Shown piece after piece: positions 1 to 29,971 of a stretch of DNA of 64,000 bases. Both the position numbers and the translations under genes were made by a program. The first letter of the stretch is position 1; the number at the start of each line of letters is the position of its first letter. The notes under the pieces are model-generated. The model was given only the letters and a program-made list of their open reading frames with translations. It was not told the origin of the DNA and searched no databases. Source of the stretch: Amphibalanus amphitrite (Eukaryota > Arthropoda > Thecostraca > Balanomorpha > Balanidae); assembly GCF_019059575.1 (NCBI RefSeq), contig NW_024883432.1, forward strand, positions 22,501-86,500. Reading direction: 5' to 3'.

Positions 1-1325
1 TGCTGCGCCACGTATGCCCCAGGATTGACGGCATTCGGCTCAACACTGGCCTCCGCCTGTCCCGCACTGGCACCTCCGGAACCTCCAGATGATGATCCTT
101 GACCGGCGCCTGTGGAGGCATCAGCCGCAATGCTGTTTCCTTGCGCCAAATCCAGGCTAGGGACGCCTCCAGATGTCAGGACGGCCTTGAACTCATTCAG
201 CTGATTGGCGAAGTCGGCACCCAGCTGTTGGGCGATCTCAGCGCCTCCTGCTCCAGAACTTCCAGATCCAGAACCTCCAGATCCTTGCTCAGCCCCTCCC
301 GATCCAGAGCCTCCTGATCCAGAACTTCCAGATCCAGAACCTCCAGATCCTTGTTCAGCTCCTCCCGATCCAGAACCTCCGGATCCATAGCCTCCACTTC
401 CGGAACCTCCAGATCCTTGTTCAGCTCCTCCCGATCCAGAGCCTCCGGATGCCAGGACGGCCTTGAACTCGTTCAGCTGATTGGCGAAGTCGGCACCCAG
501 CTGTTGGGCGATCTCAGCACCACTGCTGCCACCACTTGGTTCCACGGAGCCTCCAAAGCTGCCAGCGCCTGCCTCAGCTGAACCTCCAGATGAGCTGGCA
601 CCGCCAGATCCAGCGGAGCCACTAGACTGGCTGCCGCCGCTCGGCTCCACAGAACCTCCGTAGCTTCCAGCGCCTGCTTCAGCAGCACCCCCTGACTGGC
701 TGCCACCGCCCTGCTCAGCGGAGGAGCTCGAAGATCCAGCGCTGCCTCCAACACCAGCCGCCCCGCCCGTCGGCTCGCCGCCCATGTGCTCTCCTCCAAC
801 AACATCAGCGACTCGCTGTGTGCCCTCCGCCGAGTAGGCGTCGGCGGACCCACTGGACGACAGGTGGTTCGTCAGGTCAGATCCCGCTCCCGCTGAGCTG
901 AACGCCGTCAGGGCCGGGTCGCCAGAGGCCAGCAGCGCCTCGGCAGCCAGTCGCAGCTGCTCGGCCAGCTCAGGTCCCAGGTTGCTGAGGCCGGTGCCGA
1001 CCTCGCCGCCGGCCGAGGACGACGCTCCGCCGGACGCTCCTCCGGAGGAGCTGCTGGATGAGGTGGACGCCTGCAGTTCGTTCTGGAGTCCTCCCGAGGA
1101 GGAGGAGGCGCTGCCGCCGGAGGGCTCAGCGCTGGAGGCGGAGCCGGCTTCGGACACCGGCGGCGGGAACGCCACCGAGTTGGGGACCGATGGCGGGACG
1201 ATGAACAGCGGTGACTGTTCCAGGGCGTTTGGGTCGGCCGGGCCCGCCGGCGACAGCGGCGAAGGTAGAATGGGCAGCCGCCATTGGGGAGCAGCGTGTG
1301 CTGCCAGCAGCACACCTAGCAATAC
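1..1325 (-). CDS. Exon 2 (partial) of a Gly/Ser-rich, silk-like secreted protein
   Basis: The frame is open on the minus strand from a good 3' splice site (pyrimidine-rich tract then CAG, just right of 1325) to the window edge, so the 3' end is missing. The first residues, VLLGVLLAAHAAPQW, are a signal-peptide core and cleavage region; joined in phase 0 to MRSLL from 6140-6154 they make a complete signal peptide. After a Pro-rich stretch of about 60 residues come Gly/Ser/Ala linkers (GSGGAEQGSGGSGSG and variants) separating helix-like modules. Two modules, at about 450-525 and 185-260, both read EIAQQLGADFANQLNEF; a third, diverged one (ELAEQLRLAAEALLASG) lies at about 925-975. GSYGGSVEPSGGS also occurs twice. 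No Cys is visible. The layout of flexible Gly-rich linkers plus short helices resembles silks, adhesives and other extracellular fibrous proteins, but I recognise no named family. An extracellular structural role is inference. Confidence 0.75.
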
Positions 1326-2510
1326 CTGGCGGAGAGAGACGGGGACGGGGCCGTCACTGGCGGCGAACTCGGGAGAGGATGTGGCTCAGGGGCGAAGTGC
1401 GGGCCCTTTGAGTAAGAAATCGAGCAACTGAATGCACCCATACTAAGGTTATTTCAGCGTGAGGTGCTATTGATGGGCAGTAGAAACGTCAAAGTGAAGT
1501 AGGGACTGGTGTTTGTTGATGAGATGTTTTTAAGACGTCTTGAAATTCCGCAGTGTGTTGTACCTACGGTTGCCTGCGAAGACTCGTTTTGCTAAGCTGA
1601 CTGGTTCATACATAACGACTGCCTTGCTATTTCATAGTTATTACGCTGTAGAAGGAGCGGTATCTATATATTTTTGAGCTTCCGAATGAAGTCTGTTGGA
1701 ACCTGAACCCCCGGTATCGTTACGAAATGTCAGAAGTCGCAAGATTGTTATTGATATCCAGACATCATAAATCAATACGTTCCAAGCTAAACAGGTGAAT
1801 GGCCACTGGATTACCATCATCTTCTATAATGATGCGGCCTTCCAATCAAGCTATCGTGGCGCGCTTATTTTCCCAGCCAGAAATCTTTCTTGTAAAGTTA
1901 TTGTGTAAACACAAGCTTGGTAGATTTCAGAAACACACTGGAAGCTCTTTACAAGTGAGAAGGCGTTGAATGGAAGCAACTTTCTCTAGCACAGCAATAC
2001 ACTGGCTATATCTAACCATTACATTGAAACACATCCAACGTGCTGTCCAGAGACAGCGGCAAACGGGAAACAGGGTGACATTCAAGACAAATCACCATGC
2101 AGTGCACACATGTCCAATTTGTGATGTGTCCAACGTGTTGTTTGAACCAAACCAATCAACTTCACCAGCTGCGGACACATGTTGCAGCTCTGGATAACGT
2201 CTCTGTTATCAACTTTGAGGCGATTTAGTGGTCAGATGTTTTTCAAATGTTTAGTGCAAGAACCTGGGCCACACTAACAAGCTATGAAATGATTTTTCGA
2301 CGTTTTAATCAACCAAAGCCGGTTATAAACAAAGCCACTATTCCGTGAGGAAAGGCTCAGCAAGTCAATGACTTTTTAGGGTTAGACCATGACAGCCAGT
2401 TCCTAGTTATTTGTTAGGAAAAAAACTCGATAAGTAACGTAAGAATATGTAAGTACTGAATAAAAATCAATTATCTGATTATCAGCTATATGGGCTTAGG
2501 GTAGATTTAA

Positions 2511-3375
2511 CCCTCGCCCGTATAGGGGGTCGAACGGACCCCCCCTCGGTTTTTCGCGAATAACTCGCGTAAAAAGCGGCCGATCGCGACGAAACTTTCA
2601 GTACCCTCGCGTTAATCAATTTTACACCTACCCTGAAATTTTCATGACCCTGACCCTAATGACCTTTGACCTGTGACCTTCTTTTCGAGACCATGTTTGG
2701 CCGGAATCGCGATTCGGCGTATGTCGGCTCGCATTAGCCGCGCGTTTGCAGTCTTTTCGTGGTTTCAAGCGTTCAAACATGGGATATGATGTTGCTCCCA
2801 TGCATTAGGGTGGGTGTCAAGGTCACCGGAAGGTCAGGTCAGGTCATTGACCTTTGATGACCTTGGTTCACTTTTTCGAGTTTTAAATGTTTCTAGGCCA
2901 GTTTTCGGAGCTGAATTCGAATTTAGCAACCATACATTTACGAAGTAGTTTTGGCACCTTCGTAACATGTTACGAAGCTGTCAGAGGCGGCTGCCACCTA
3001 CTACGAATACCCTTACTGGTTGACCTGACCTGACCTGACCCGACCTGGCCTAAATGCATGAAGACATCATCTGTGATAAAAACTAACATGATATTCGTGA
3101 TCAGCACCCCGAAAAACCCCATAGCAGCCACGCTTTACGACTTTCTAACAGGTCCCGATTTCCCCGACTTTTGGGTCATTGACCTGACCTGGAAGGCAAC
3201 CGATGACCTAGGACCTTAAAATTGGGTATCATCGGCTTCCTCTCGTCACGGGCAACACGCTCGTTTTTTTCCGCGAAGCTCTAGCTCGATCAGGGGCGAA
3301 ACGGCAAGGGGGGGTCCAACGGACCCCCCCCCCCTTATACGTTCGCGGCTGGAAAAACACCAATACGGGCGAGGG
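2511..3375 (+). mobile_element. Non-autonomous piggyBac-like element, family A, copy 1
   Basis: The element is 865 bp and is flanked on both sides by TTAA (2507-2510 and 3376-3379). Its terminal inverted repeats begin CCCTCGCCCGTAT. A TTAA target and CCCT-type ends are the hallmarks of piggyBac. There is no transposase reading frame. Just inside each end lies a G-run/C-run hairpin around a TCRAACGGA core (near 2524-2546 and 3309-3335). The interior holds many AGGTCA/TGACCT motifs, including overlapping runs near 2831-2850 and 3020-3050. Confidence 0.8.
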
Positions 3376-3490
3376 TTAAATGTTTATGAAAGCATTAGAG
3401 CTTCGAGTGAGCAGTAACTTGAATTATGCGGTGCTATGCGGTGTTATAATGCGGAAAAAACGATTACTGTATCCGCTGACAAGTTTTTTA

Positions 3491-4348
3491 CCCTTACACT
3501 TATAGGGGGGGGGGGTGGAACGGACCCACTCGATTTTCGCGAATAACTAGCGCAAAAAGCGGCCGATCGCGACAAAACTTTCAGTAACCTCGAGTTGATC
3601 AATTTTACACCCACCATGAAAATTTCATGACCCTGACCCAAATGACCTTTGACCTGTGACCTGCTTTTCTAGACTGCATGGTTGGCTGGAATCGTGATTC
3701 AACGTATGTCGGCTCACATTATCTGCGCGTTTTGTGGACGTTCACACATGTGAAATGATGTTGGTCCCATGTACCATCGTGGGGGTCAAGGTCACGTAAA
3801 GGTCAGGTCAAGGTCATTTCACCTCGGTTCACTTTTTCGAGTTTCACATGTTTTTAGGGTAGTTTTTTAGCTGATTTCGAATTTGGCGCACATTTGAACA
3901 GTTACAAAGTAGTTTTGGTGCCCTCGTAACATGTTACGAAGCTGTCAGTGGTGGTTGACACCTATTATGGATACAGCCGGCAGGACGCCTATACTGACCT
4001 GACCTGACCCGACCTAGCTTAAATGCATGAAGGCATCATTGTGCTCAAAACTAGCATGAAATTCCTGATCAGCACCCCGTAAACCCCTCAACAGCCTAAC
4101 TTTACGGAGTTTTAACAGGTCCCGATTTCCCCGTCCTTTGTCCTTTTGGTCATTGACCTGGCTTGGAAGGTCAATCAGTGACCTAGGACCTTAAAATTGG
4201 GTATCATCGGCTTCCTCTCGTCCTGAGCAATACACTTATTCTTCCGCGAAGCTCTAGCTCGATCAGGGGCCGAACGGCAGGGGGTCCAACGTACTCCCCC
4301 CACCCCCTCATGCGTTAGACACTGGCAAAACACCAATACGGGCGAGGG
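3491..4348 (+). mobile_element. Non-autonomous piggyBac-like element, family A, copy 2
   Basis: This is a second, diverged copy in the same orientation as copy 1, 115 bp downstream of it. The right end (ATACGGGCGAGGG) is intact; the left end has drifted to CCCTTACACTTATAGGGG. The flanking target sites have decayed from TTAA (TTTA on the left, TTGA on the right). Internal order is the same as copy 1: G/C hairpin, TGACCTTTGACCTGTGACC block, GACCTGACC block, second hairpin. Confidence 0.75.
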
Positions 4349-4668
4349 TTGAAGTCCACTACAAGTTTTCTCGAGTTCTCGCTTCTCTAGTTCATCGTTT
4401 AGAGACAATGAAGTATTTATCCGTCAATAATGGATAGGTGCACCGGAAAACGATTCTTTAAAATGCAAAACTTACTTAAAACGCTCGGGTAAAAAATGGC
4501 AACTTAATTAGTTATTTAATGGTACCAATATTACGTAATTTACATAATGTTTATCAATAAAAGAAACACTTTTTGATGCCGCAAGAAACAGACTTGATGG
4601 GATTTTAATGTAAAGCAGAGCCGCAAAAGTAATTTGTTTTTTGTATTCAAATATCAAAGATAGCAAGA

Positions 4669-5371
4669 CGCCATGGCCTTTTTACGGAGCGAGCGAAGCG
4701 AGTGGAGTCTTTCCTTAGATTAACGGAAATTGCTGGGTATGAGCGGCCGGCCGGCCGGCCGGCCGTGCGGACGCTTTTGCGAGGCTTATATCTCAGCAAC
4801 CACTTGACCGATTTACATGCGGTAATTTTTGTAGGGTAGCTTCATTCCTTCTAGCAAGTATTGGACTATTCCTGATGCATGTGGGTGACCCCTTATGCAC
4901 GTGCCACGTGCAAAACGAAGAGGTGTCAGTTTTGTAATTGTTGCAATATCTCGGTAACTACTTGGCCGATTGCGCTGAAAGTTGGCATGTAGGTAGGCAC
5001 CCACTAGGCACTGCATATCCCTGTGCCAGAGTTGGGGTGCTGCTGCACGTGCGCACGTGCAGGGGTTGTTTCCAGATCTCGAGAACGGCTCGAATGATTG
5101 CGCTCAAATTTGGTACACAGTTAGGGACCGGTTAGTAGGGTGCCGTGCACAAGTCAGTTGGGACCCACTTTGCACGTGCGCACGTGCAGGGTGTCTCTTC
5201 CAGATCTTGAGAACGGCTGGGCCGATTGTGCTAAAATTTGGCACATCGCTAGAGACCGGTTAGCAGGGTGCCGTGCACAATTCAGTTGGAGATACCCCCT
5301 CGAAATTTCGCACGTGCAAGGCTCACCCTCTCGCTCGCTCCGTTAGTCGCCCCAAAAGGCGTTATACTGGT
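4669..5371. mobile_element. Inverted-ended element carrying a CACGTG-rich tandem repeat
   Basis: The left end reads about CGCC-TTTTT-ACGGAGCGAGCGA. The right end is its inverted match, TCGCTCGCTCCGTTAGTCGCC followed by GGCG. Exact borders and target duplication are unclear, so the superfamily is not assigned. A (GGCC)n run sits at 4743-4764. From about 4785 to 5325 there are four imperfect tandem units of roughly 130-150 bp, each with a variant of 'atctcgagaacggctgg' followed by 'ccgattgcgct', separated by palindromic GCACGTGCGCACGTGC stretches. Short open frames across it come from the repeat and are not genes. Confidence 0.55.
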
Positions 5372-6139
5372 GTCAATGGCGTTCATTGCTTAACGGAATA
5401 CAATCACGCTGCTCATTAAATAATGGCTGGTTATCATTCCAATATATAAGGCACTATTTGATCAGCTTGTACATATATATTATGTTTAGTCAGCATGCTT
5501 GGTATTTTGATGAGGTTATCGCCCTTAATTTAAAAGCAGGTTTAATTGAGTGAGCAGCGGAATTATGAAAAATGTTATAGTTATTGGCCTTCCCATATTG
5601 TACCTCAAAACTCTATGTACTTGTAGCTTTATGACAAGTGTCAACCATGACCAAAAAGGCAAGAAAAGCAAAATGCGAGATAACGTGACGGCAATGCCCA
5701 AAACTGGCGATCAATGAGTTGAATGAATGTATGTGTGCATCTAACTATGTATGTATACGTCATTACGTCCAAGAATGCATGGGTGAGAAAGTAGGTGTTA
5801 TGTGAATGGGCGATGGCGTTTTAAGGATATCAATTAAGTAGCCATTGACTAGGGTACAATTTATGATGTTCAGCTAGATTCGAAATCATGAGTGTCGCTT
5901 CGTCTCCATGCATAATCTGCTGGTAATTACCCTTTTTTTGCAAGTTGATGGCATTTGCATAATTCATGTGTACCGTGTTATGAATCCATAAGTAAATTTG
6001 TGTTGTATGTGTGTAGGTATATTATATCAACTGTAGGCGTATTATTTACGAATTGTGTTTCAACAGTCAATAAAATCATTCCACCACTAATCCACAATGC
6101 ACACACTGATGTTACTTCAGCTCGGTTTGCAGCACTCAC

Positions 6140-6154
6140 CAAAAGGCTCCTCAT
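6140..6154 (-). CDS. Exon 1 of the Gly/Ser-rich secreted protein (MRSLL)
   Basis: On the minus strand, ATG AGG AGC CTT TTG is followed directly by a strong donor, GTGAGTGC. Joined in phase 0 to the exon at 1325 it reads MRSLL-VLLGVLLAAHAAP, a textbook signal peptide (basic start, Leu-rich core, small residues before the cleavage site). A TATA box and an initiator lie just upstream at the expected spacing, with a leader of only about 23 nt. A very short first coding exon that splits the signal peptide is typical of arthropod cuticle and other secreted-protein genes. The pairing over 4.8 kb is inferred from frame, phase and promoter; no transcript is available here. Confidence 0.65.
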
Positions 6155-6174
6155 CCTGTGATGGTCCTGGTATC

Positions 6175-6207
6175 ACTGACGTGCCCTTCGTGCAGGGTGC
6201 CTTTATA
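6175..6207 (-). promoter_or_regulatory. Core promoter (TATA box plus initiator) of the Gly/Ser-rich gene
   Basis: On the minus strand TATAAAG occupies 6207-6201. An arthropod-type initiator, TCAGT, occupies 6179-6175, which puts its A (6177) 30 bp downstream of the first T of the TATA box. The predicted transcript starts at about 6177, and the ATG at 6154 follows 23 nt later. Confidence 0.65.
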
Positions 6208-8552
6208 CACTTTATCCTGTATCGTGTCCATCCATGGCCGGGCAACAAGCACACCGACCGCGGGCGCCACCGGCTCTGTGTGGGCAGAGCTTCTCGAAGA
6301 GTCGCACCACCATTGTGTGCACGATTTTTTCGTGTCCTTCCTTTTCCTGGTCGGTCCGATGCAGCCCGACTCAGGCAGAATCTAATTGCATGAAGTCTCC
6401 GTCCATAGCCGGCTGAAGCACGCGATCGACGCGGCCCGGGTCGCAGGCAGCTCTCAGTAGTTTCCTGCGGTCAGTGCGCTAAATGTCTGGGGGGATCAGT
6501 TAGATATCAGGTGGTGCGTTCTTTGAAAAAAGCGCACGTGCTGCGAGTTACGCAAACGTGCAAACCTTTCACCGGTGACTTATTTGGCTCGTGGCACGCA
6601 TGAGCTGCTCGTCAGAAACTCAGACTTCATTAGGAAACGTGTGTGACTGTGTAGGGGAGACCAGGGCAAAACGGCCTACCTGACGTTTCTTACGATGCTG
6701 ACATTTTATTTGTAAACATAGAAAGCTTCTTTCTATGCCAAGGTGATCGCTATTAAGTTGGCTTTTGCTTAAACCTCGTTTCATTTCTAAAAGCGTTCAT
6801 ATATAGGTAGGAGATATTGGCAAAACTTTAAATCTATGCCTTTTGGCCACTTTGTCCCAGACCTCGGGGCAAATCGGTCACCGGCGATTTTCTTGCCCCA
6901 ATATGAGATACAGGATAGTTGCCTCATGTAGGAATGAAATTTTTGACGGTAAAATGTTTAAAAGAGGATGGATGTTTATTTTGCAATCGTTCACCTGTAG
7001 GTAAACAATACAAGAACATTCATGGAAAAACATTTTAAATTGCATTATTTGAGTAACTTATGTAACTGTAAAGTGGCCGGGATGAATGCATGACCATACA
7101 TTTCAATATCAAAAACGTTTCTAGTCCAAGTGAACGCAATTCATGGAATTAGGAGCTGTTCGCTCTGTCCAGTCCGCTTTGCCCCGCTCCTACCATCCGA
7201 GACAAAACATCTTCCAGCAATGTTATTAATAGGGCAAAACACATTGGAATTGGCAGAGGATATATGCGATAACCACTCATTGCAGAATGAGAACACTTGA
7301 ATAAACTTTCAAACGGTTATGGCCTGACATAGTATTTAAAAAGCGTAGAAATATTGGAACAAAAAAGAATAACCTGGGAAAACATGCACTTCTTCTTTCA
7401 CGGAAAAAAGGCAACGGGTCGGAAACTCCGTTCTGGCCCATTCGAACGACCGAGAGGAAGTATAATTGGCAGCCATAGACTGGAGCTGACGCCAGTTGTG
7501 CTGGGCTGAAACGAAGGGTGGCCGCTTTGCCCCGGTTGGCCGCTTTGCCCCGGGTGGCCGCTTTGCCCGGTCTCCCCCAACTGGTGCGTAGCATTTTGGT
7601 TTAAAATGATGGTGCCAGTTCTCCAAAGTCGCACAGAAGCATGTTGATAAGCTCCTGTAGATTACTTTCTTTTCACCCGAAAACTTTAATTACGAGTATA
7701 TGCTCTCAAAATGAAAAATATGAACAACTTGGATTGACGAGCCTTGCGCATGAATTGGTTGACCGTCATCATATCAATAGTCAAAGTCTGTCAACACAAC
7801 ACATTTTCCTTCTAATTTTCATATTATCGTTTGCATGAGAGGAATATGTTAGGACGGGACCGACATCAGCTGCGTGGTCATGTCTTTGAGATAGCTGAAG
7901 TTGTCATAGCACGTCAACGGAGTGAATATCATTTACCTAGTTACAGCGTTACACCAACTTGGCTAGCTCGAACATGGAGGATTGGCTGTTATCATGAGGT
8001 AAAGATGCGTGCGTGTCCTCGCATATGAGTTATGAACGTCAGGGAAAGCATTCCCCGGACGTCACAATTGGTCACAATATAACCTGCCCGGGATGCATGT
8101 ACTCTAGTTATTCATGTCGCATATGTCGTGAATCAAAGGCTGGCACATATTTTCCATGTACGGCAGCAGTCATCCGGCGATTGATCATGATGATAGTCTC
8201 GGTGACGTGCGGTGTTTTTCGGCTCTGTGGTAGCATTGCGTGACGAGCCCATGACGACTTACGTAACCTAGGACGTATTTCGGCGAGCTGCATATCTTTT
8301 ACCGGGCGACAGATGCCTTATGCTGCATTTTTAAACAGAGAAGGCATGCGGATTTCGAATAACCGTTTAATGCATGGTAATGTTCAAGCTAGTGTAGTTT
8401 TTATTCAACCGCAATTTATATTCATATTCAACAAAGAACGTTGCACGTCGTAGGTACCTGTCGATCAGAAACATCAAGTCAACATCAACATCAACATCAA
8501 CCTTTCGAGTTTCACGATCAATAAGTACCTATGGCTCTGGTCCCGGCCTGAT
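6208..8552. other. Intergenic spacer upstream of the Gly/Ser-rich gene
   Basis: Apart from the element at 6654-7577, this stretch shows only short unsupported frames. The first 250 bp upstream of the promoter are relatively GC-rich and may hold regulatory sites, but I recognise none. Confidence 0.4.
6654..7577. mobile_element. Inverted-ended element with GGGCAAANCGG repeats, superfamily unknown
   Basis: The left end GGGGAGACCAGGGCAAAACG and the right end (reverse complement GGGGGAGACCGGGCAAAGCG) are inverted repeats; length is about 924 bp. The motif GGGCAAANCGG recurs inside: three tandem 17-18-bp units at 7518-7570, and single copies near 6672, 6875 and 7170. No target duplication is clear and no transposase is visible. 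Open frames on the minus strand here (about 7277-7634) read through these repeats and are not supported as genes. Confidence 0.5.
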
Positions 8553-8556
8553 TTAA

Positions 8557-9693
8557 CCCGGCAGGCGGTGGGTCTCCCGGCCAACTTCCGCGCGGTGGGG
8601 GGGGGGACATTTTTTTGCCCCCCCCCGTATCTCCGAAACTACTAGACGGATCCGGAAAATTCAAACGGCGTTCGATAGCCCTCTCAAATTTGCAGAAGGA
8701 AACCAAATTTCATTGACCTCGGGGTCACCGATGACGGCACAGGTCAGGTCAAAGATAAAATGTTTCAACGTTCACGGGGCTTCTAGGGAAAGCGCTATAA
8801 CACCGAGTAAAACGCATTTTGTCGAAAATCAGCGATAGGGCGTCAGTTGTCTAGTACATATGGTGCTATTAGAGGTCACTGGTCATACCAGGTCAGGTCA
8901 CAGGTCAGGTCACCAAAGGTCACCAAGGGTCACCACATGAACCCAACTTTACTAAGGTTGTGCGATGCGTGTTTTATGGCCAGTTTTTCATTTCCAACTC
9001 AATGGTGTTGGTTATAAGACCATCAGGTACGGTTTAGGTCACTTTCTGGTGGAGGTCAGGTCAAGGTCAGGTCAAAAAGGTCAAATTTCAAAGTTGATAT
9101 TTTTGCATAAAATGAGTATTGATTCGATGCAGCTCGTCACGGGGAGTCTAACGGTAGTCTTTGTTTTGCGCTACGAGGTCTAGAATTGCTAAAAATTGAG
9201 TTTGAAAATTTGACGTCATCAATTTTGAACAGTTTTTTCGCTATAACTTGGCCAAAAAAGAGGTATAGAACTCAAATTTGGTATGTAGATAGAACGTGGT
9301 GGGGACTATCACATATATTCCTTTTTTTTCGAAATTAAAAAAAAACTTTTTGGATTTTTCGGCTATTATATTAAAAAAATCTATTTTTTTATTTTTGGGG
9401 GTCGAAATCCAAAAATTTAAAAAATCCGAGATGGTAGTTTTGCAGCCCTCCTAATTCTACACCTTTTATGTCTGAAACATTTTTCTATATCTCTAAAGCT
9501 GTAGGCCTGACAGCTCTTCCCATTAGCGGCCAACCTATCATAGCCTTTGGAAAAATGTTAGGTCACAATGTGCAATAGCTATTCACGGGAGGGTACTGAA
9601 AGTTTGGTGACGATCGGCGCAGCGGTTCTCGAGATATATCGAAAAAACTAAAGGGGGGGGGGGCAAAAAATGCCCCCCCCCCCGCCTGGAAGG
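8557..9693. mobile_element. Non-autonomous TTAA-flanked (piggyBac-like) element, family B
   Basis: TTAA lies on both sides (8553-8556 and 9694-9697). The ends are weak inverted repeats: CCCGGCAGGCGG at the left, and CCTTCCAGGCGG at the right read inward. Each end carries a long G-run/C-run palindrome (8595-8631 and 9651-9684). The middle (8727-9085) is packed with AGGTCA direct repeats, most densely at 8890-8934. There is no coding frame. The build matches family A, but the sequence is largely different. Confidence 0.65.
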
Positions 9694-10224
9694 TTAAAAA
9701 ACTTCGCAACATAGTTAATCATTTTATTACCATGACCTTTTGACTTGACCATATACAGCCTGGAAACAACATTGTAATTTAATGCTTAATAAGTGCCAAA
9801 ATGTGCGATATTTTGTTGCCGCAGCACGCTACATGTCGGTCAATGCATGTTTTGACCACGCACAGGGCAGACCTTATTTAAGAATAGCGTGTGCACTGCA
9901 ATGCGCACTGTGCAGCGTGCAATATGCATTACGGTCGTCCTTGCTAGACTATGAGCAAACACACATAACACTTGATCATGTTCGGTGTGCAATTGCAATG
10001 GCAATGTGTCATGACTTGACTTTCTAACCCAACTGACCAGAGTGACCGATTCGATGGCTGAAGGACAGAAGTCGCAAGTTCCCACCCTTCCGGGGGGTCC
10101 CTATTTATTGATATCAACTGATGAATGAGTCGGAAATCCGCGCCCTAAATCAAGTCACGTTTCATGTGTACGGTTTTATTCAAGGCCCTGGGTCGGGGCC
10201 TGGGTATGGATATATCTGCTTCTA

Positions 10225-18550: not shown

Positions 18551-19353
18551 AGGTATAATGGGCTTCAATAAGATTACGTAATAAACAATAAACTAACCAG
18601 AATCTCTTTACATGGTGATAGTGGAGAGATAAAGATATGATGGTTTTCTATAACATTTTGTTAGAAGATCACGAGCGGAAGACTGCAAAGCAGTGTCAAG
18701 TGTCATCAACTGTCGAATAAATGCCAGGCCATTTATAACTCCGGCAAAGCTTCCATTCAAACCAGCCAACTACTACCAGGCATCCTGTGCTTGGTGGTTG
18801 AACAAACGTCAGGGTTGAACAACTCCGGCCATAGAGGAAGACAAACTCTATCGTCCAAAGCGGGAGATAAACTCCGTTTCTCCTAACAGGGAGACAAAAA
18901 CGCTCCGACGTCTTGACCCTACCGAAGAAATGGATGAGACAAATCGCGATCTGCCGAACACCTATAAACTGACCAGGTAGGATGGACAACTGGACACCAC
19001 ACGTGTGTGCCTTCCAACCCGTTACCGCTGAGCCGCCGGTGCAGCGGCCGGCCGCCGGTTTTCTCCACCCGTCCCGACCCGCCGCGGCCCGCCGTAGAGC
19101 CGAGCCGGCGAGTGGACCAGCCGTCGAGAGGGCCGGCCGCGCTGCTGACCTGACCGGGCCAGGTTTCACCGATGCAACGCGGAGCGACGACGGCGGCCGG
19201 CGAGTGGCAAACGTGAACGCGCGCTCGAACGCAGAGGAGGTGCCCGGCTGCGCTCCCTGACGAGCCCGACACACAGTGTGGCCAGTGAGAGTGCTGTGCG
19301 GAGGAGCAGCCGACTTTGGAGGTGCCGTGTGGCACCGATGCGACACCGCTAAC

Positions 19354-19374
19354 ATGAGGATGCTTCGATTTGTG
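19354..19374 (+). CDS. Probable exon 1 of the Pro-rich secreted giant (MRMLRFV)
   Basis: The sequence ATG AGG ATG CTT CGA TTT GTG is followed by a donor, GTCAGT. Joined in phase 0 to the acceptor at 24203 it reads MRMLRFV-IYGALALAVADHAAA, which has the basic start, hydrophobic core and small residues of a signal peptide. The segment just upstream (about 18990-19340) is GC-rich and CpG-rich, as expected for a 5' leader or promoter. The C at donor position +3 is not optimal, and no TATA box sits at the right distance, so another exon 1 cannot be excluded. The choice rests on frame, phase and signal-peptide fit. Confidence 0.55.
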
Positions 19375-22300
19375 GTCAGTACCGAAATCTCGCCTATGGT
19401 GTGGTTTGGGAGCACGTGGGTCTTGTGTTTTTCCCTGCTCAGTGTGACATCTTCACCAGAATTACGCATTATGCAACAGCGGTGCCACTGGAGACGGCTG
19501 AGCTCAACGCTATCACTGAGGAAACCAGTTCACCCGAGTGTCCTTGAGTGTAGCGGGGTTTCCCGTCTTACGTCGTCGGCAGGATGGAGTGGCGTTGCCA
19601 GTGACATTGAGATATAGCTCCACATACAAACACCCCTCCCTCTCCTGAGCGCCAAGGGAGTGAGTTATCGACCGAACTTCCTTCCCGGTACACAGAATGT
19701 ATTCAGTATGTAAATGAGGACGATTCACTGGTCAGTTAAATTACCGAGAGGATGTCGCGTGCCACAGCTCACTCTTCCACCGAAAGCCAATGTTTAGTCG
19801 ATGAATACAACCCTACTGGTCTGAGGAACCCGCAAACGGTCGCAATTTACAGGACAAAGCCACTACGGACAATTGGTCAGGTCGGAAACTCAATGCACAG
19901 TTGCACAGCCGTCCGTATCCGCAATGTTCGAAAGAATCGCGTGTCAGCCTGCATCTTTCTAGCGGCATTTTTGCCGTTAAATTGATGCGGAAAGGCTGAA
20001 CGAAAGACCCTCACTGCGGGTCCCTAATTAGGCTTTCTACTTTAACTGATGATTGCTCTTTGCCTCGTACAGCTTGGTCGTGACCGTCCAATCCATAAAC
20101 ATTGGCACCACTAAAGGTATTGAGCCGTGTCATGAAAAGGCTATTGAAAAGGTTCATTATCCAGTAATTGAGGATCGGTGCATTTAATTATACCATGGCC
20201 ATGAATTGATTAGTAAATGAGAATGCATTGCGTAGAGTTTTCTCTTCTAGAATCACTTTGAGGGAACAATAGCGTTGGAATTAAGCCCATTTTACGATCA
20301 TCTGTTTAAAAGGACGACGTTAGTGATAGTGGCACAAGACCATTGACTTCACAAACTTTATCGCAGAGTCCAGATAATCTGGCATTTAAAAAAAAAATTC
20401 ATTGCGGATAAGCTCAGTGCGGGACATTGCACAATAGATACACAACTAGTCCATTAGTCCCGAGTTGTTCAGTCAGACGTTCCGAATGACACAAGCCGGC
20501 TTCGAAACTAAATCTTGAGGAAACCCTAGCGTGGGCCATCCTTTTCCTTAACCACGCTCTCAGAGACATGTTTGAACGTTGAACCACTGAAAATGCGACA
20601 TTGGCGAACTGAAGCGAAGGCGACCAATTTGTACTATGAAGTCATTATTTCAAGGGTAATTATGGCCGCAGGATAACAGAGTTTAAACATCCTAACTAAT
20701 TGAAGATCCCTGAAAAAATTGTCTGGAATATTGTTCGGGAGTTAGTACGCAGCGAACGACAATGTTCATAGTTCCTACCTAAACAGGCAAACCAAACACG
20801 CAACTGTTTGATCTGCGACAGTGACTGGATTGTAGCGTTTGATACAGTTGGAGCTCGTCCGTACATGGGTTGCCATACATGCACGCAGGATGTGTTCTCT
20901 CTCGATCCCCACGATGCAAATTGCAAACCATTTTTGTTACATCTCTGAATGGGACACTGATTTTGCTTGTCTGCGGCACAAAATCCTGGGAAGTCCGTAT
21001 GTAAAACCACCTCAGCTTCTACTCAGCGATCCACTCACATTTAAATGTGAATACGAGCCCGGCCGTCCGGTGGTTTCGGCGTTTCGTTTGAAACCAGCCC
21101 GCCATCGCGCCCGGGGCACCACAGAAAAGCGCTGACCAAATGTAGAAATGCCCCTGATCGAGCTGGTCAAATGAGGCCGTATTCAGAATCCCGGTTAGAC
21201 CGAAATTGTCCACCATGGTGGTGCGACATAAAATCGAAATTGTCCCGAGAAACCGGCTACCGTTTGCTCCAGATTGAGGGTATTTCAAAGAAAACCTTCC
21301 GATGAGGATATTGACTATATAGTAGAGCTTAAAAATGTCTGGATAAAAGATAGCCACACCTTTCAACGCTCGCATTGTTCGTGAAAGAAAATGAACATAC
21401 GCAGGCATTCTTATTGACTTGTTCTGATGGTGGCAAAAGCTTATAGCCTTCTGGCGGTCAAAGAAAAATGCGAATACAGAATCAGCAGTTTACAGCTAGT
21501 CCAAACATATTTGAACATTTATGTTACCTCCCTTCATAAACATCACATAATGCACCGCTCCGCCGTCACTCATTCAGCCTGGCTTCCTTCCAAGCAAGAC
21601 CACGATGATCAGGTTTCTCTCACCCTAAAGTCATGCTCGGTATGCACGACCTCTGTAACCTGCCGCGGGCAGGTGCCGGACTGAGTAAACTATCGGCCCA
21701 TTTTTGGCCGTTGACAGCCCATCATTGCACCCATAAAAAGGTCGTAAAGGGGCGACCATTGAAAACCCACGGAAGAGATCATACCCTAACGTTCAATTTA
21801 GCGCGGTCGGCTGTTGCATGCCTGCATGACTGAAGGTATTGCGCTGAGGTTTGGTTAATGTCGAGAACGTTTCACCCGTTCCGTTGGGCTGTCATCAGCC
21901 ACGGTAGCGAGCATCGGTGAGTGTCCAAGAGTGTCCACGAGTGCACTCATGAGTGCCCATGAGTATCATGAGCGGAAATGCCTTCACGAGCACACTGTCC
22001 CTCCTAAAAGCAGACGCCTGTTTACTGATCGTGCTGATAGTGGTTTCACGCTTGCACAAGAGAGCTGACGTAGCCTCTGATTTGTCGATATAGGCTAAAG
22101 GTCTTATTGGCGAATTTCTTAAATGTGTTATTTATTCGTTTGTTTACCTGCCACCTCAGCTATCACAACGAGCCCAACCAACCGGAGCTCAGCCACAACA
22201 GAAATCAGTGACGAGACAGTCTCGGGACTGAAGCCAAGAGTGTGGATGGGGCCAAACCAGTGGGGCCGGTGCATGGCTGACCTGACCCACTTGCCAGCCC

Positions 22301-24202
22301 CGTGCAGTCACGTGACACGTGCTCAGCTGAGCAGAACATCAGTCGAAGCTGCGGGCTGGTGGCGCCGGCGGACCGGTCTTATAGTGAAACCAGTCGGCCC
22401 TCAGCCAGCGCAACATGTCACCGGTCGCGACACCGCACCGCGTAGTATCGGTGTCGTCGCGTTTGTAACAACGGCCCAGTATTCGCTGGGGTCGGGCGGT
22501 AGGCATTCATCATAACCGCCAATCATAAACTCAGTTCGACGGGTTGATTACAATGACCCTCCGATATCGAAGGCACGATCAGAGATGAAAAGGAGCGTGA
22601 TTTGGGCGCAGTCTCACACTTTCGCTCACGTTCTGGTCCGAGATGCTATCGTGATGAGCGTCGGTTATCCTGTTCAGGGGTCGGTTTCACTGACGCTTTA
22701 GTCGTCGCACGCAGACGCTGAGAAACAGGTTTACAGAAAATGCCACGTTTGGAGAAAAGTGACACTCTCTCCCGGTTTTCGACAGAGACTGGGTGCGATA
22801 ATGCGTCTGTGTGGATTACAGCTAAAATGGTACAAAATAAGCCACTGTTGGTAAACAGCCTGTCAGAACTATCGAGAGAGCCAATGAAATACGCCGCATT
22901 AATGTCGCTATTGAACCACGGATCGGTCCGTTTATTTAATAAACTATTCGGCTGAAAGCATTGTCGTTACCAAGCTATAACGGATATTACATCGTTATTT
23001 ACGTCAATGTGGGATTATATGGGACAGTTCAACAGATGATATTGCCATTTTGATGGGAAATTAACTCGAAAATTGCTTAGTGGGTCGCTCAGGCCATGTT
23101 ACACACATGAGTTCTAACAGCTCTTCGGACATTATTCAGCTATAATGACCAACTAAAGACATAATTCATATTATCATCGTCTTCAGCATAATCACTGGCA
23201 GATGCTCGCTGTGCTCATCTGGACAAGATTGCCGAACAGACCAGCTGGCTGATATATTGCCATAATAACCATGTTGACCAACATACAGCTGACCAGTAAT
23301 CAGTCACATACACAGCTTGAAAATCCCAACGATTTAGACACGGACGGTCGTGGTGACTTCACCCAGATATGTCATTGCATCTTTGCACGCAACTCATACC
23401 AAACTTGGCACAGACCCGTGCCTAGTTACATAGGTAACCTAGTCTCCAAGGCTTCACTAAAAACTTTACGGGAACATGTGTCTGCGATGCTGAACAACGC
23501 ACATTACGAATTACGATGCTAGGTCGAACGTGTTGCCCCGATCACCCTTTCCATTTACTAAACAAGCGACTCCACTCACATGAGTAGGCCACATTTTGGC
23601 TTGGTTTCCCTATATTCACATCGCTCCGTAAATAAAGATCCCAATTGAAACGGTACAATAGCACAATTTAACAGAACAAGTTGTGGACCTGGATGTCACA
23701 GGGAAAGGACGAAGTGACGTAGCGAAATACGTGTTTTGTGCCAACAGGATAAGCGAGTAGCACCTTTTCCTCGTATGGATTAAAATCGATGGGTAGAAAA
23801 ACATAATTGTTTCAACTGATAACGAGTCTGGAATGACGTAGTTATGCCATTTATTAGGCGAACCAAACGACCCATCCTGGAGCAGTAGGGATAAGAACTT
23901 CACGAGGGTCACAGGAAAGGGAACACCGCCGATCGTCTATCTTCGAAATGTCGAACTGAATGAGTTTTCCGATAGAATAATGGTATGATCACCGAGAGCG
24001 GCGAAACGCGCTATTGCCTCACGATATGCATCTTGCATATTGTATAGGATTTGTATTAATGCATTACCCAATATCAAGCATAAGTATTTGTTGTATAACA
24101 ATAAGCCTCTAAAATGAGTGACAACCGTCGTGCTGCAACAATCTCATTGACCAGGAAAGCACAAAAAACAGAGCCCTAACAGAGCCCTCTTTCTGTCTGC
24201 AG
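19375..24202 (+). other. Intron 1 of the Pro-rich secreted protein gene
   Basis: Length is 4,828 bp in phase 0, between GTCAGT at 19375 and the acceptor CCCTCTTTCTGTCTGCAG ending at 24202. No transposon ends are recognisable inside. Short frames (for example 21019-21408 minus, 22123-22515 plus) have no recognisable homology. Confidence 0.5.
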
Positions 24203-27200
24203 ATATACGGCGCACTAGCGCTGGCGGTAGCGGACCACGCAGCCGCCTTTGGAGCCGGACCCGGAGCCACCGTGCTACAGGAGGTGCAGGCCCCCGACCT
24301 CAGCGGACGAAACGACGGCTTCACACACAACCCCGGCAACACGTTCGTCGTATCAGCAGACCTGCGGCCCTCCGCCTCGCTCCTGCAGCCGCAGGAGCAG
24401 CGGCCGGTGTTCAACTTTCCCCCGCAACAGCAGCAGCAGCAGCAGCAGCAGGTGGTCAGCCGGCCACCACCGCCGCCGCCGCAGGCCGCACCTGCAGTCA
24501 GACCTCAGCCGGTCCCACAGCCGGCTCCGACCTTCCAGCCGCAGAACAACCAGCCACCGCAGAGACCGGCCCTACCGGCGAGTGATAAGCCAGTGTTGGA
24601 TCAGTCCACTGTAGATGTGCGGGAGATCAACCCTCCGTTCCTACAGCAATACAACGAGGATGGCACCGTGTACCAGCCTCCTCCGCCGCCACCCCCGCAG
24701 CCGCAGCAGAGGCCGCAGCCGCAGCAGCAGAGGCCGCGTCCGCAGCAGCCGTTCCGCCGTCCTCCGCCCGGATTCCGCCGACCTCCGCCACCGTTCGGCC
24801 GCCTTCCGCCGCCGCCTCGGCCGGGAGGACGTCCAGTGCGTCCCCGTCCGTCGGTCTTCCAGAACCCTCTTCAGCAGCTCCAGCAGCGCATCTTCGGCCG
24901 ACCACCTGCGCGCGCGGCTCCCAACCGCCGCCGTTTCCGGCGCGACCTCACCTCAGACGTGGATGTTGCAGACGAGATCCGCTCCGATGTGAAGCAGGAT
25001 CGTCTCGGAAAGTGGGAGATGGAGTACGCGATGCGGAAGGCTGCCGATCCTGCTTCCTTGAAGGACAACGAAGACATCCCTGCCTGGGCGCCTCTGAAGG
25101 AGGAGGCCCGCGCTCTGCTGGAGATGGCCTCACGGAGCGGGAGCCAGGGTCCGTCCGCGAACGGTGATCTGCCTATTACCATCACCGAGGTGACTGCCGA
25201 TAGCCCCGAGGAAGCCCGCATTCCCATCTCCGCCGGCGATGAGGTAGTGATCGTGCGCGTGCCTGAAGAGAGCCTGAACTCGGCGCCGCTCGCCATTGAG
25301 TCCTCTGGGCTGCTGCGCCGGTCTCGTCAGTTGCAAAGCGAGGTGACTGCCCGCCAAGGACGTGCCGCGGGCAGCACCGGCCGGGCGGACCAGCCGTGGT
25401 GGTCGCGCATCCCTCTACTGGGCAGCCTCATCTACCGCCCGCTGCCCGGCGAGGAGACTACCCCTGGCTACACTCCCTCCGGCGAGGCGACCGTGGCAGT
25501 GGTTACCGATCGGGCCGGCTACGACACAGAGACGGTGGTCTCACCGCTGTACGACCCCTATCTCTCCATCGACGGAAGCGGCCGGCCCTACTACCGCACC
25601 CCGACCCACGCAGAGCTCGCCCACTACGAGCACATTCCCGACATGGCCAAGCCGGTGCTGAACCCTACCGAAGATTTCGTTGTGCCCGATAACATCGAAG
25701 ATCCGTTCCGCGGCGGCTACGCGCCGTTCCGACCCGGGTACCAGTATGTGAACGCGCCCCATCTGCCAGCGCCGTACTACCCACCCGGAGATGTCAAGTA
25801 CCACCGCCGACAGCAGCTGTTCCCCAAGGAGATCAACTACCACGAGAGCACACAGAAGCGTAGCGACGACGGCACGAAGGTGGCGGCCCGGCAGGCAGAG
25901 ACGACTGTTCAGGCGGCGGAAGCTAAAAGTGATGCCGGATCCGGACTTGGGAAAGTTTTGGCTCAGGCCGCGCAAGATCGCGCCGGGGAACTCTCTATCA
26001 TCGACACTGGAGATCACTATGCCGTTATCAGCGGCGACATAAACAAGTTCGTCGACTTTGACGGCAAGGCAGGCGGTTCCACGAAGGCACGATCTCTGGC
26101 CGATCTGCTAAAGCTGGCTGGATCCTCTGACACATCTGCACCGCACTCACGCGTGAAGCGCCAGGCGAGTCTGTACCCTCTCCTCTCACCGGTCCAGCGT
26201 CGTCCGCAGCGCCGTCCCATCCAGCGCCGCGACGACGTAGGCCGCTTCCCTCATCGGGCGCCCACCTTCCGACCGCCGTGGGAAAGCGGTCGTCGGGTTT
26301 CGGTGCGCCCCCGCGGACCAAGACCTCTCCGACCGGTGTCCCAGCGTCCCAACACCCGCCAGCCAATCACCAGCTTCCAGCCGCCCGTCCCGCAGCCCAT
26401 CTTCGAGCAGCACGATCCAAGGCCCGTCTTCCACCAGTCGCACGAGAGGCCAGTTTTCGAGCAGCATGACGAGAGGCCGTTCGAGCAGCATAACGTGCAG
26501 CCTACCTTCGAACAGCCGCAGGAGAGTTTCGAGCAGTTTGACGCAAGACCTTCGTTCGAACAGCCCGCTGCACGCCCTGAGTTCGAGCATCACGAAGCTC
26601 GCCCGACGTTCCACGAACCGGATTCCCGCCCAGCCATTGAACAGCCTGGCAACGACATCATCACTGGTCCTCCAGCGCATTTCGGCGGCTTCCAACCAGT
26701 GACCCGACCCGCGCCTGACGCTGAATCCCAGCCGACTGACGGTCCCGTTATCCACGAACATATCCCCCACGGACAGCCTCGTCCGGTGGTCAGCCCGGTG
26801 CCTCATGACGTGCCTCGTCTCACGGTCGTCACCACCGTGCCAGCGCCCGTTCACACAGAGGCAGTGTTCGTGCGTCCGAGCCGACCAGTTCACCAGGAGG
26901 TCCACCAATCCACGCGGGTGGTGGAAGATCAGCAGTCGGTGCACCCTCAGCAGCAGTTCGCTGGCAGCGAGCAGCACCAGCAGGTCATTGTCAGCAGCAG
27001 CTTCAATAGCCAGCCATCTGTTTCGGAGAACCAGGTGACTGAGGAAGATAAACCTGCAGGATCCTGGGCTTCAGCAGCTCTGGCGGGTCTATCAGCTATT
27101 CTCGGAGGCTCGCAGGAGACCACCACCGAACCGGCTCCTACTGTTCCCACTCCTGATGCTGACAGTCACAGCTTTAAGCTGACACACCAGAACCAAGAGG

Positions 27201-29971
27201 AGGATAGTGCCATCAAGAACAAACATGTTGAAGTACCCAAAGTCGTCGGACAGAATGCCGATGACGAAGAAATTCACAAGGACGAACTGAAAGAAAAATC
27301 CACTGTCAAGGTTGTGAAGCGCTATCGTAAGCGACAGCGACGTCCCAGCCCTCAGCCTTCTGCTAGCAGCGTCTCCAGCCACAGGGGCACGTCCCACCAT
27401 AACGCTCCGACTGTTACCTACCGCAGGCGCAGGCCCTCTGCAATTCAAGCCCCGGCCAGCGATGACGATGCGGCTGAAACGAACGAGCCGGCGAAGCCAA
27501 CGGGTCCCAAACAACGCGTGACATTCGGCGCTAGGGTCCGACCGACGGCTGGTCAGCGCCGTCGACGACCGATCGCCCGCCGCCCAACTACATCGGAGCC
27601 TGAGCCAACGCCCACTCCCACGACGTCAACGACCCAGGAGCCTGTCACCGCGGAGGCTAGCCAGTCAGTGCGACGACCCGTGGTGCGCCTCCCGACGAGG
27701 AGCGAACGCGTCCAGGCCGCTGCCCCGAGCCCCGTGCGAGAGATCCCGGCACCACAGCCAGTTCCGACTTCACCGACCACCCAACCCACTCCGCGACCGA
27801 CTACGAGCAAGCCGCAGACCACTGCACCGCCGCAGGAACAGGAAGACACCCCGAGCACTGGAGGATTCAGACCCGTAGCGGGCGTGCCTCGTCATCGTTC
27901 CGTTCCGCCGACCCGCGGTCGGCCGCTCAGCCATCAGACGATCACCACGACAGTTGAGCCCAGCAATGTTGAGAACCTCCCTCAAAACACTAACAAGGAT
28001 GAGCCTAAAACCGACACAAAAACAAAGGGAGAGAAGGAAGAGAAGGTTGAGGATGTCCACAGCCAGTTGGAGAGCTACCTGAGCCGGTACGCCGAAAAGT
28101 ACGGCCTGGGTCTCGTGACGAGCAGCCCCAAGACACCGCGCCCTGCGCCCACTGACAAGCCGGCCGCGCCCGTCTCCGGCCTGCGTTGGGCGCACCTCGC
28201 TGCGCGATCTCGTAATCCTGCCGGAGACGATGTCGACGAGCTAGATGAATTCGTCACCGGCGAGCCGGACGGAGACGAGCGCGTCTCGGTCGGCAGTCAG
28301 TACTCGTACCGCGTCCAGCTGCCGCCCAGCCGACGCGTGCCGCCGGCCCTCAACAGCGTCCGGCTGCGGCCCAAGTCGAAGCTGGCGCAGCTGCTCGGCA
28401 GCTCGCCGCGCCTGAGGCCGAGCACGGCCAAGCCGACGATCCCTTGGCCGGCTGGTTACCAGCCGTTTACTGTGAGCAGCACCACACCACGGCCGGGCCG
28501 CTGGGCTGCGCGGCGGGAGCGGCTCACCACGCCGTCCCCCACCGCGGCGCCAGCGCCCACCACCGGACCCGCCTGGAGCAAGTACGCTGATGAGTTCACG
28601 ACCACCCGCCGGCCGACCACCGAGGCGCCGGCCACCAGCGCCTCTCGCTCGCGGCCTATCTTCATCCCGCCCATCAACAGGAAGCGGATCCGGCCGAGGC
28701 CGCTGACCCTGCTGCACGCTGGACCGCGGAGGGAGGAGACCACAACGACCACCTCCACCACGGCAGAGGAACCCATTGAAAAGACCGAGGGCCCGACCGA
28801 TGCGCCTGCTGTGACAATCCCTGCACCGCCACCCGTCACACAGGAGATTTCGCCCGAGCCGGCGACAACCGAAAACGTTGAGACCACGACCGACTCGGCG
28901 TTCGAGGACGAAGACCCGCTGGTCGCGTCCTCTGAGGAGCCGGTCGGAGAGTCATCGCTGTTTTCGGTCGTCTACAGCAAGGAGCGTCCTCACGTTCGGC
29001 CACCGCAGCCGGAGATCTTCAGCCGTCTGAACAAGTTCCTGGTTGAGCACGGCGAGCAGCCGCCGACCGCCCCAGCCACCGTCTCTGTGACTGTGGGAGC
29101 CTCTCCCATACAGGTCCCTGTCTCAGCTCCTGTGGAAGCTCCGGAGAACCAGAGTGGTTTCCAGGCCTCCGTCGAGGCCGTCCCCGTCCCTGTGGCGGTG
29201 ATTGACCAGGAGGTTCTTGAGGAGGCCGAGGAGGAAGCCGAGCCGGAGCAGCAGCCCCTGGTGACCCCGGATGGTGCCGTGATCGTGCGGGCGGTGCCGG
29301 CCGAGACCGATTCCAACGCCGGCGCCTGGGTGCCCACCATCCAGGCGGTGGAAGTGAGCCCAGAGGTGGTCGCCGTCGGTCCTCAGCCCGGCACGGTGGT
29401 GATCTACCCCGAGGACATGTCCCAAGAGGAACGTGAGCAGCACTGGCCCCAGTCCGCTCAGGAGGAGAAGGAGGAGGACGACTGGTTCGAGGAACCCGAC
29501 AGCGTTCACGACCTGGATCTCTCCCACGACGGTCTCGTGGAAGAGGTCGTCTACCTCGAAGATGCAGCCTCCGGCGCTGTGCTCGGCAAGGCGGCTCGTC
29601 TGGATGACGATGCCGCTCCCGAGGCGGAGTTCCTCGTTCCCGTCGTCACCGAAGCGCCGGTGGATGAAGAGGACGCGACTGAGGTAGAGGAGCTCGTGCA
29701 CGATCCGTACGGCGTGTTCTGGACCTCTCCCAGCGGAGCGACCAACGCCGAGCAGGCCGAGAGCCAGCAGCTGGCGGGTGCATTCGCCGCCGACGTCAAC
29801 GACGAGGCCGATGAGGCTGACGCCGTCGAAGTCGATAGCGCGACTGACGTGCCATCGGAGAGTAGCGCAGATGCCGAGACAGATGATCGGACTGTCAACC
29901 TGTGTCTGGATGGAAAGTGTATGTTTATTTATGAGCCGGGCAGGCAGGTGCGAGTGAGCGGTGATAACTAG
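24203..29971 (+). CDS. Exon 2 of a very large Pro/Gln/Arg-rich secreted protein
   Basis: After a strong acceptor the frame stays open for 1,922 codons to TAG. With exon 1 the protein has about 1,929 residues. Domains in rough order: end of signal peptide (IYGALALAVADHAAA); Gln/Pro runs (residues about 70-220); an Arg/Pro block ending RRRFRRD (about 250); a less repetitive, acidic and Tyr-containing part (about 255-640), including VPEESLNSAP and WWSRIPLLGSLIYRP; SRVKRQ (about 656); short FEQHDxRP repeats (about 739-830); KRYRKRQRR (about 1045); long Pro/Thr/Arg-rich stretches typical of O-glycosylated proteins; an acidic tail; and the only visible Cys pair, CLDGKC, about 25 residues before the end. 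RRFRRD and SRVKRQ fit proprotein-convertase cleavage. I recognise no named family. A matrix, cuticle or secreted-glue role is inference. Confidence 0.85.
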   Translation: MYGALALAVADHAAAFGAGPGATVLQEVQAPDLSGRNDGFTHNPGNTFVVSADLRPSASLLQPQEQRPVFNFPPQQQQQQQQQVVSRPPPPPPQAAPAVRPQPVPQPAPTFQPQNNQPPQRPALPASDKPVLDQSTVDVREINPPFLQQYNEDGTVYQPPPPPPPQPQQRPQPQQQRPRPQQPFRRPPPGFRRPPPPFGRLPPPPRPGGRPVRPRPSVFQNPLQQLQQRIFGRPPARAAPNRRRFRRDLTSDVDVADEIRSDVKQDRLGKWEMEYAMRKAADPASLKDNEDIPAWAPLKEEARALLEMASRSGSQGPSANGDLPITITEVTADSPEEARIPISAGDEVVIVRVPEESLNSAPLAIESSGLLRRSRQLQSEVTARQGRAAGSTGRADQPWWSRIPLLGSLIYRPLPGEETTPGYTPSGEATVAVVTDRAGYDTETVVSPLYDPYLSIDGSGRPYYRTPTHAELAHYEHIPDMAKPVLNPTEDFVVPDNIEDPFRGGYAPFRPGYQYVNAPHLPAPYYPPGDVKYHRRQQLFPKEINYHESTQKRSDDGTKVAARQAETTVQAAEAKSDAGSGLGKVLAQAAQDRAGELSIIDTGDHYAVISGDINKFVDFDGKAGGSTKARSLADLLKLAGSSDTSAPHSRVKRQASLYPLLSPVQRRPQRRPIQRRDDVGRFPHRAPTFRPPWESGRRVSVRPRGPRPLRPVSQRPNTRQPITSFQPPVPQPIFEQHDPRPVFHQSHERPVFEQHDERPFEQHNVQPTFEQPQESFEQFDARPSFEQPAARPEFEHHEARPTFHEPDSRPAIEQPGNDIITGPPAHFGGFQPVTRPAPDAESQPTDGPVIHEHIPHGQPRPVVSPVPHDVPRLTVVTTVPAPVHTEAVFVRPSRPVHQEVHQSTRVVEDQQSVHPQQQFAGSEQHQQVIVSSSFNSQPSVSENQVTEEDKPAGSWASAALAGLSAILGGSQETTTEPAPTVPTPDADSHSFKLTHQNQEEDSAIKNKHVEVPKVVGQNADDEEIHKDELKEKSTVKVVKRYRKRQRRPSPQPSASSVSSHRGTSHHNAPTVTYRRRRPSAIQAPASDDDAAETNEPAKPTGPKQRVTFGARVRPTAGQRRRRPIARRPTTSEPEPTPTPTTSTTQEPVTAEASQSVRRPVVRLPTRSERVQAAAPSPVREIPAPQPVPTSPTTQPTPRPTTSKPQTTAPPQEQEDTPSTGGFRPVAGVPRHRSVPPTRGRPLSHQTITTTVEPSNVENLPQNTNKDEPKTDTKTKGEKEEKVEDVHSQLESYLSRYAEKYGLGLVTSSPKTPRPAPTDKPAAPVSGLRWAHLAARSRNPAGDDVDELDEFVTGEPDGDERVSVGSQYSYRVQLPPSRRVPPALNSVRLRPKSKLAQLLGSSPRLRPSTAKPTIPWPAGYQPFTVSSTTPRPGRWAARRERLTTPSPTAAPAPTTGPAWSKYADEFTTTRRPTTEAPATSASRSRPIFIPPINRKRIRPRPLTLLHAGPRREETTTTTSTTAEEPIEKTEGPTDAPAVTIPAPPPVTQEISPEPATTENVETTTDSAFEDEDPLVASSEEPVGESSLFSVVYSKERPHVRPPQPEIFSRLNKFLVEHGEQPPTAPATVSVTVGASPIQVPVSAPVEAPENQSGFQASVEAVPVPVAVIDQEVLEEAEEEAEPEQQPLVTPDGAVIVRAVPAETDSNAGAWVPTIQAVEVSPEVVAVGPQPGTVVIYPEDMSQEEREQHWPQSAQEEKEEDDWFEEPDSVHDLDLSHDGLVEEVVYLEDAASGAVLGKAARLDDDAAPEAEFLVPVVTEAPVDEEDATEVEELVHDPYGVFWTSPSGATNAEQAESQQLAGAFAADVNDEADEADAVEVDSATDVPSESSADAETDDRTVNLCLDGKCMFIYEPGRQVRVSGDN

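Follow-up and report, generated by a model that had tools for sequence, protein, structure and literature searches.

Among Anopheles genes of the CPR cuticle protein family (R&R, Pfam Chitin_bind_4) that have introns, 86% are split within the signal peptide, and a TATA box together with an initiator motif (INR) is reported for 93% (PMC2259329). In Drosophila genes with signal peptides, phase-0 introns peak at position 5, and of 88 such genes 38 encode cuticle constituents and 46 are unannotated (PMC1626468). In the moth gene FibH of Yponomeuta, the first exon encodes 10 residues and an intron of 340 bp separates it from a giant second exon; the FibH product is Gly-rich with an isoelectric point (pI) of 4.0 (PMC9684489). 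The Gly/Ser-rich cement proteins (GSrCPs) of barnacles are of low complexity with silk-like repeats, have abundant Gly, Ala, Ser and Thr and pI values of 6.4-11.5, and prefer SS-type motifs; AaCP43-like bands exceed 10% in each of Gly, Ala, Ser and Thr (PMC5099703). Here we analyze two head-to-head genes in a 64,000-nt stretch of the barnacle Amphibalanus amphitrite (contig NW_024883432.1, positions 22,501 to 86,500 of the forward strand; hereafter the window), a left gene on the minus strand and a right gene on the plus strand. With a probability of about 0.5, both are ordinary genes, independent of each other, that encode secreted extracellular-matrix proteins, with the left and right roles proposed below.

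For both genes, the models were compared with contig C817, taken as the other haplotype of the window region (C1935:22501-86500); haplotype status is an assumption for all pairs compared in this study. First-exon candidates (haplotype-conserved, phase 0, at most 15 codons) were ranked by donor score and then by hydrophobicity. MRSLL ranked first among 26 candidates on the left; on the right, where there were 25, MRMLRFV shared first place with MLRFV, a start internal to it. Joined to the second exons, they give the N-termini MRSLLVLLGVLLAAHAAPQW (left) and MRMLRFVIYGALALAVADHAAAFGAG (right; 7 + 1,922 = 1,929 aa in total), both of which read by eye as putative signal peptides. A sequence-only reading of this DNA had proposed these two tiny exons, phase-0 introns of about 4.8 kb inside the signal peptide and a very long second exon, and the models bear it out, with introns of 4,814 and 4,828 bp and second exons of 1,922 codons on the right and 441 codons, continuing beyond the window, on the left (Table 1). 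Both first exons are unchanged between the haplotypes, each within a conserved block. On the left, the TATA box, the TCAGT motif, exon 1 and the donor are all identical in the other haplotype; 28 nt separate the first base of the TATA box from that of TCAGT, a motif that can act as an arthropod initiator. On the right, a single change was found from 19104 to the donor, whereas the right intron diverges by 4.2% (200 differences, 19376-24150). The right open frame (1,949 codons) is far beyond chance, the maximum in 200 first-order Markov simulations being 459 codons. An antisense frame of 277 codons (18696-19529) was rejected as a gene, the longest antisense run in the other haplotype being 174 codons (1,100 bp examined). 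Judged by their sequences, both genes look real.

Where the haplotypes differ, protein-changing differences are depleted in both genes. In left exon 2, 440 codons could be aligned, with 20 synonymous and 5 non-synonymous differences, a ratio of non-synonymous to synonymous polymorphism (pN/pS) of 0.10 (binomial p 1e-7). For right exon 2 the corresponding counts are 34 and 3, all in its first 334 codons (pN/pS 0.03, p 2e-17), and exon-2 residues 165-334 show no amino-acid change at all. As yardsticks, pN/pS was 0.19 for AaCP43-1, 0.34 for a giant cuticle gene, and 0.00 and 0.14 for two arginine kinase pairs; six pairs of RR domains, each 60 codons long, lacked non-synonymous changes, and two of these pairs were fully identical. 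A claim of purifying selection across the entire right exon (37 differences in 1,921 codons) was rejected, as the contigs are identical beyond 25,204.

Table 1. Features of the left and right genes in window coordinates
Feature	Position	Strand	Details
TATAAA box, left gene	6202..6207	-	First base 6207, 53 nt upstream of ATG; same in other haplotype
TCAGT initiator-like motif, left gene	6175..6179	-	First base 6179; same in other haplotype
Coding exon 1 (MRSLL), left gene	6140..6154	-	ATG AGG AGC CTT TTG, 6154-6140; donor GTGAGT
Intron 1, left gene	1326..6139	-	Phase 0; 4,814 bp
Exon 2, left gene	1..1325	-	Starts at 1325 after CCGCCAG; 441 codons in window; putative signal-peptide core, then Gly/Ser/Ala-rich with helix-like modules
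Coding exon 1 (MRMLRFV), right gene	19354..19374	+	ATGAGGATGCTTCGATTTGTG; donor GTCAGT
Intron 1, right gene	19375..24202	+	Phase 0; 4,828 bp
Exon 2, right gene	24203..29971	+	After CTGCAG; 1,922 codons + stop; Pro-rich, Pro/Arg stretch, F[EH]Q repeats, acidic C-terminal part
Pro/Arg-rich cationic stretch, right gene	24710..24943	+	Exon-2 residues 170-247; ends at convertase-type site RRRFRR

The build that the two genes share is frequent among cuticle genes of the same genome. A genome search with PF00379 listed 150 matches, from which 30 loci were cut out and all 30 were read; many of them, being haplotype or tandem copies, do not count as independent cases. In 18 of these loci, the signal-peptide core immediately follows a phase-0 AG acceptor. 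In two more, the R&R domain lies deep within a giant Gly/Ser-rich exon that begins with an acceptor followed by GLLLMLCTAGSVTG or GLLLVLCAAGSVTG. A split signal peptide is thus apparent in 20 of the 30 loci, the two giant-exon loci being counted by their exon start, and in three loci nothing was recognized. The 18 split loci form nine pairs: in six, a good donor follows an MKL exon and a TATA box lies 60-82 nt upstream of it, one has an MFL exon without TATA, and for two no first exon was found within 1.5 kb. The giant R&R gene (C204:159503-159721 and C37:141445-141663; loci L046, L047, L065 and L066) carries its domain in a Gly/Ser-rich frame of 1,569-1,594 codons that starts inside the signal peptide. 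Its product, as far as it is readable, is acidic and free of Cys, and its exon starts like that of the left gene, which shares with CPR genes the combination of TATA box (at -53) and initiator motif, a feature of the left gene only. The introns after codon 5 (left) and codon 7 (right) lie near, not exactly at, the Drosophila peak. A short signal-peptide exon followed by one very long low-complexity exon is also what both genes have in common with moth FibH, as far as the left exon is readable. In composition, FibH further resembles the left product in Gly content and pI; the left product differs in being Ser-rich and, as read, much shorter, and the FibH intron is far smaller (PMC9684489). By sequence, a tiny exon with a phase-0 signal-peptide intron reads as a common, not a defining, arthropod cuticle layout and as no sign of a special locus. 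Inference from the shared build is weak because 20 of 30 cuticle loci appear to be split alike, as are many insect cuticle genes (PMC1626468, PMC2259329).

The left product had been described as Gly/Ser-rich with helical modules. The first part stands: the 441 residues in the window contain 24% G, 21% S and 16% A and no Cys. As for the modules, AlphaFold without alignment drew helices at both EIAQQLGADFANQLNEFKAVL copies with a predicted local distance difference test (pLDDT) score near 70, in a model that is poor as a whole (mean 44.9). In the other haplotype, 630 residues (signal-peptide core trimmed) contain 29% G, 22% S, 14% A, 2.1% T and 0.3% K, again without Cys, at pI 4.05. GS and SG dipeptides are in excess (z about 6), and SS is not (z 0.1). 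In the PDB, 12 rows were returned (E 0.055-0.94), mostly engineered fusions and antibody chains, none of them meaningful; the rows probably match via Gly/Ser linkers. A DUF3198 hit (E 0.0074; 16.5 bits against a cut-off of 28.7) was treated as chance. A search of the 807.6-Mb assembly with the left product gave three rows at E<=0.001, each lying in one of the two haplotype copies. With its first 177 exon-2 residues as the query and a limit of E<=10, there were 16 rows, namely the two copies and 14 others (E 0.098-9.7) that were taken as chance. The AlphaFold models of both products were of too low quality to support a fold search (mean pLDDT 44.9 left, 38.3 right).

Given that the species is a model of adhesion and that GSrCPs of the same species (AaCP43, AaCP19 and AaCP57 families) are also low-complexity Gly/Ser-rich proteins (PMC5099703), the left gene might encode an undescribed GSrCP or a larval adhesive component and not a cuticle protein; Gly, Ser and Ala together make up 65% of the left product. 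The AaCP43 forward primer (PMC5099703) matched exactly on two contigs, with no other site at <=1 mismatch, and each of the two loci also contains the reverse primer and an open frame (448 and 441 aa), which identifies the genome as that of A. amphitrite or of a very near relative. Unlike the left gene, AaCP43-1 has one open frame in which the signal peptide is not split, and its composition is 15% G, 16% S, 11.6% T and 8% K at pI 9.3, with no excess of SS (z -0.1). The giant RR protein, over the 603 aa readable on C204, has pI 4.05, 19% G, 21% S, 7% T and 0.5% K and no Cys, with SS in excess (z 3.7). The comparison covered these two proteins, and the left product, being Thr-poor, Lys-poor and acidic, is nearer in composition to the giant RR cuticle protein than to AaCP43-1; it also lacks the abundant Thr and falls outside the pI range listed for GSrCPs (PMC5099703). 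The SS dipeptide does not decide between cuticle and cement, because it is without excess in AaCP43-1 and in excess in the RR protein. In addition, six peptides of the two products had no match in the paper texts searched, a scope that leaves out supplementary tables. A cement or adhesive role for the left gene is unlikely in our judgment.

The right product is Pro-rich, as the sequence-only reading had stated, and its composition is broader than the Pro/Gln/Arg label suggests (13.8% P, 9.4% A, 8.3% V, 8.0% E, 8.0% R and 6.7% Q). The convertase-type sites that had been noticed are in excess: five R-X-[KR]-R sites were counted against 1.27 +/- 1.10 in 2,000 shuffles, and 29 [KR]R pairs against 16.1 +/- 3.6. 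The protein contains only two Cys, which are exon-2 residues 1901 and 1906. It also carries a single N-glycosylation motif, seven F[EH]Q repeats (starts at residues 734-785) and a strongly acidic C-terminal part. The PDB held no meaningful relative, and searches of the genome with exon-2 residues 258-666 and 1563-1922 returned, at E<=1, the two haplotype copies and nothing else. On its sequence, it appears as an orphan with an excess of convertase-type sites. The sequence-only reading recognized neither family, in agreement with the Pfam and PDB searches. The Pro/Arg stretch (78 residues, 24 P and 20 R, net charge +20) may resemble proline-rich antimicrobial peptides, and the right product could be a precursor from which a convertase frees this stretch as a cationic antimicrobial or polyanion-binding peptide. 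The terminal RRRFRR, the excess of R-X-[KR]-R and the unchanged residues 165-334 would fit such a precursor. Against it, a PDB sequence search with the stretch gave no match at E up to 10, and basic runs occur along much of the protein; a literature search for a crustacean proline-rich peptide with furin found no paper. We regard this precursor as distinctly improbable.

It had further been suggested that the shared build and neighborhood mark one locus for secreted structural material. That both genes are likely real and their products secreted, and that cuticle or matrix is likeliest for the left one, is retained here; a single functional locus is not, in view of the common layout, the 13.2 kb between the two ATGs, the different promoters and the lack of similarity. 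The head-to-head arrangement, a signal peptide split in phase 0 in both genes and near-equal introns in the window haplotype would suit one co-regulated locus, or a duplication that left the two genes with a common first exon and intron. The similarity in intron length does not extend to the other haplotype, in which the first introns measure 3,589 bp (left) and 4,841 bp (right) and the ATGs are 20.7 kb apart. The two products have no similarity to each other (best blastp E 2.1 unfiltered, 5.8 filtered), and paralogy or a shared intron or promoter was rejected; a bidirectional promoter was rejected by the ATG distance. The promoters are of different types, left with TATA and TCAGT and right with neither. 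The two strong DNA matches between the regions link the left intron to 17.5-17.9 kb, upstream of right exon 1, and are part of a repeat that also occurs elsewhere in the window. One locus or one duplication has very little probability. Slimmer still is the chance that the right gene encodes a polyprotein-like matrix precursor, whose cationic Pro/Arg peptide and long acidic C-terminal segments, once freed by a convertase, would charge-pair and coacervate with the left product at the cuticle or base, and we know of no precursor of this kind.

We therefore return to two independent genes for secreted matrix proteins. Their structures at the level of sequence, their haplotype conservation and their composition are shown, and neither a further gene copy nor a known domain turned up in the readable sequence; secretion, tissue, disorder, cleavage and material function are what we infer. 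Cuticle or cuticle-associated matrix is the likeliest role for the left product and, less surely, for the right one. The left product would be an acidic, Cys-free, Lys-poor Gly/Ser/Ala protein built of short helix-like modules with flexible Gly-Ser runs between them, most likely a silk-like filler or elastic cuticle component that the epidermis would secrete and that would assemble with chitin or other cuticle proteins. The right product would be a secreted Pro-rich protein of 1,929 aa, probably mostly disordered, likely cut at several sites by convertases on its way through the secretory pathway, giving basic and acidic segments that would assemble in the matrix.

Several observations weigh against this interpretation. 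Neither the left product (window part) nor the right one has a Pfam family above cut-off or a PF00379 match at E<=1, so that, unlike in CPR genes, no R&R domain was found in the readable left part or in the right product, and the right composition differs from that of the RR protein read. The signal peptide is uninterrupted in 7 of the 30 cuticle loci, and three of the 18 split loci (L034, L041 and L042) may also be unsplit because an in-frame Met lies <=12 residues upstream. TCAGT occurs in only one of the six MKL pairs, and cuticle first introns (209-505 bp in the six MKL pairs, 1,293 bp in one) are far shorter than those of the left and right genes. Left exon 2 runs past the window edge into sequence reading N, where the end of the gene is unread. 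Exon 1 appears less certain for the right gene than for the left because its donor is weak (GTGGTCAGT matches 6 of 9 consensus places) and the 300 nt upstream contain neither TATA nor TCAGT. The haplotype comparison of right exon 2 is informative for the first 334 codons, the remaining 1,588 giving no signal, because the contigs are identical beyond 25,204. Finally, cuticle and cement are not cleanly separable, because adhesive proteins are proposed to be secreted from a basal epithelium that also contributes to the cuticle (PMC8371367).

The two contigs are 100% identical at window positions 25205-31652 and 33008-36783, position 36783 being the end of the compared stretch. Elsewhere in the region they diverge, by about 4% ahead of these positions and by 7% at 47.4-48.0 kb; the identity reflects either shared recent ancestry or an assembly effect. 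Between the two identical parts, an element of about 1.36 kb (31651-33007) with 27-bp inverted ends (CAGGGTGTCCCATAAGTTCGTTCTCAC) and flanking TA is missing from C817 despite identical flanks there. Thirty-nine other near-full-length copies with 98-99% identity were found among 40 scored of 939 candidates, and the element looks like a young non-autonomous one of Tc1/mariner type. The other haplotype also contains a 144-bp satellite (L016 1204-5772 and 8460-8780; about 23 copies, followed by 9 apparently in opposite orientation) and an open retroelement frame of 1,611 codons (C817:288585-293417), presumably of BEL/Pao type, which has no counterpart at the matching place in the window. A non-long-terminal-repeat (non-LTR) retrotransposon, with its endonuclease and reverse transcriptase domains split between two frames, lies at 55635-58897 of the window.

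An intron in the signal peptide with a long exon behind it is a frequent arrangement in cuticle genes of arthropods and, taken alone, should be read as a sign neither of silk nor of a special locus. Two proteins that are orphans and probably secreted, and whose gene models were compared with a second haplotype, join the candidates for cuticle and attachment material in this fouling-model barnacle.
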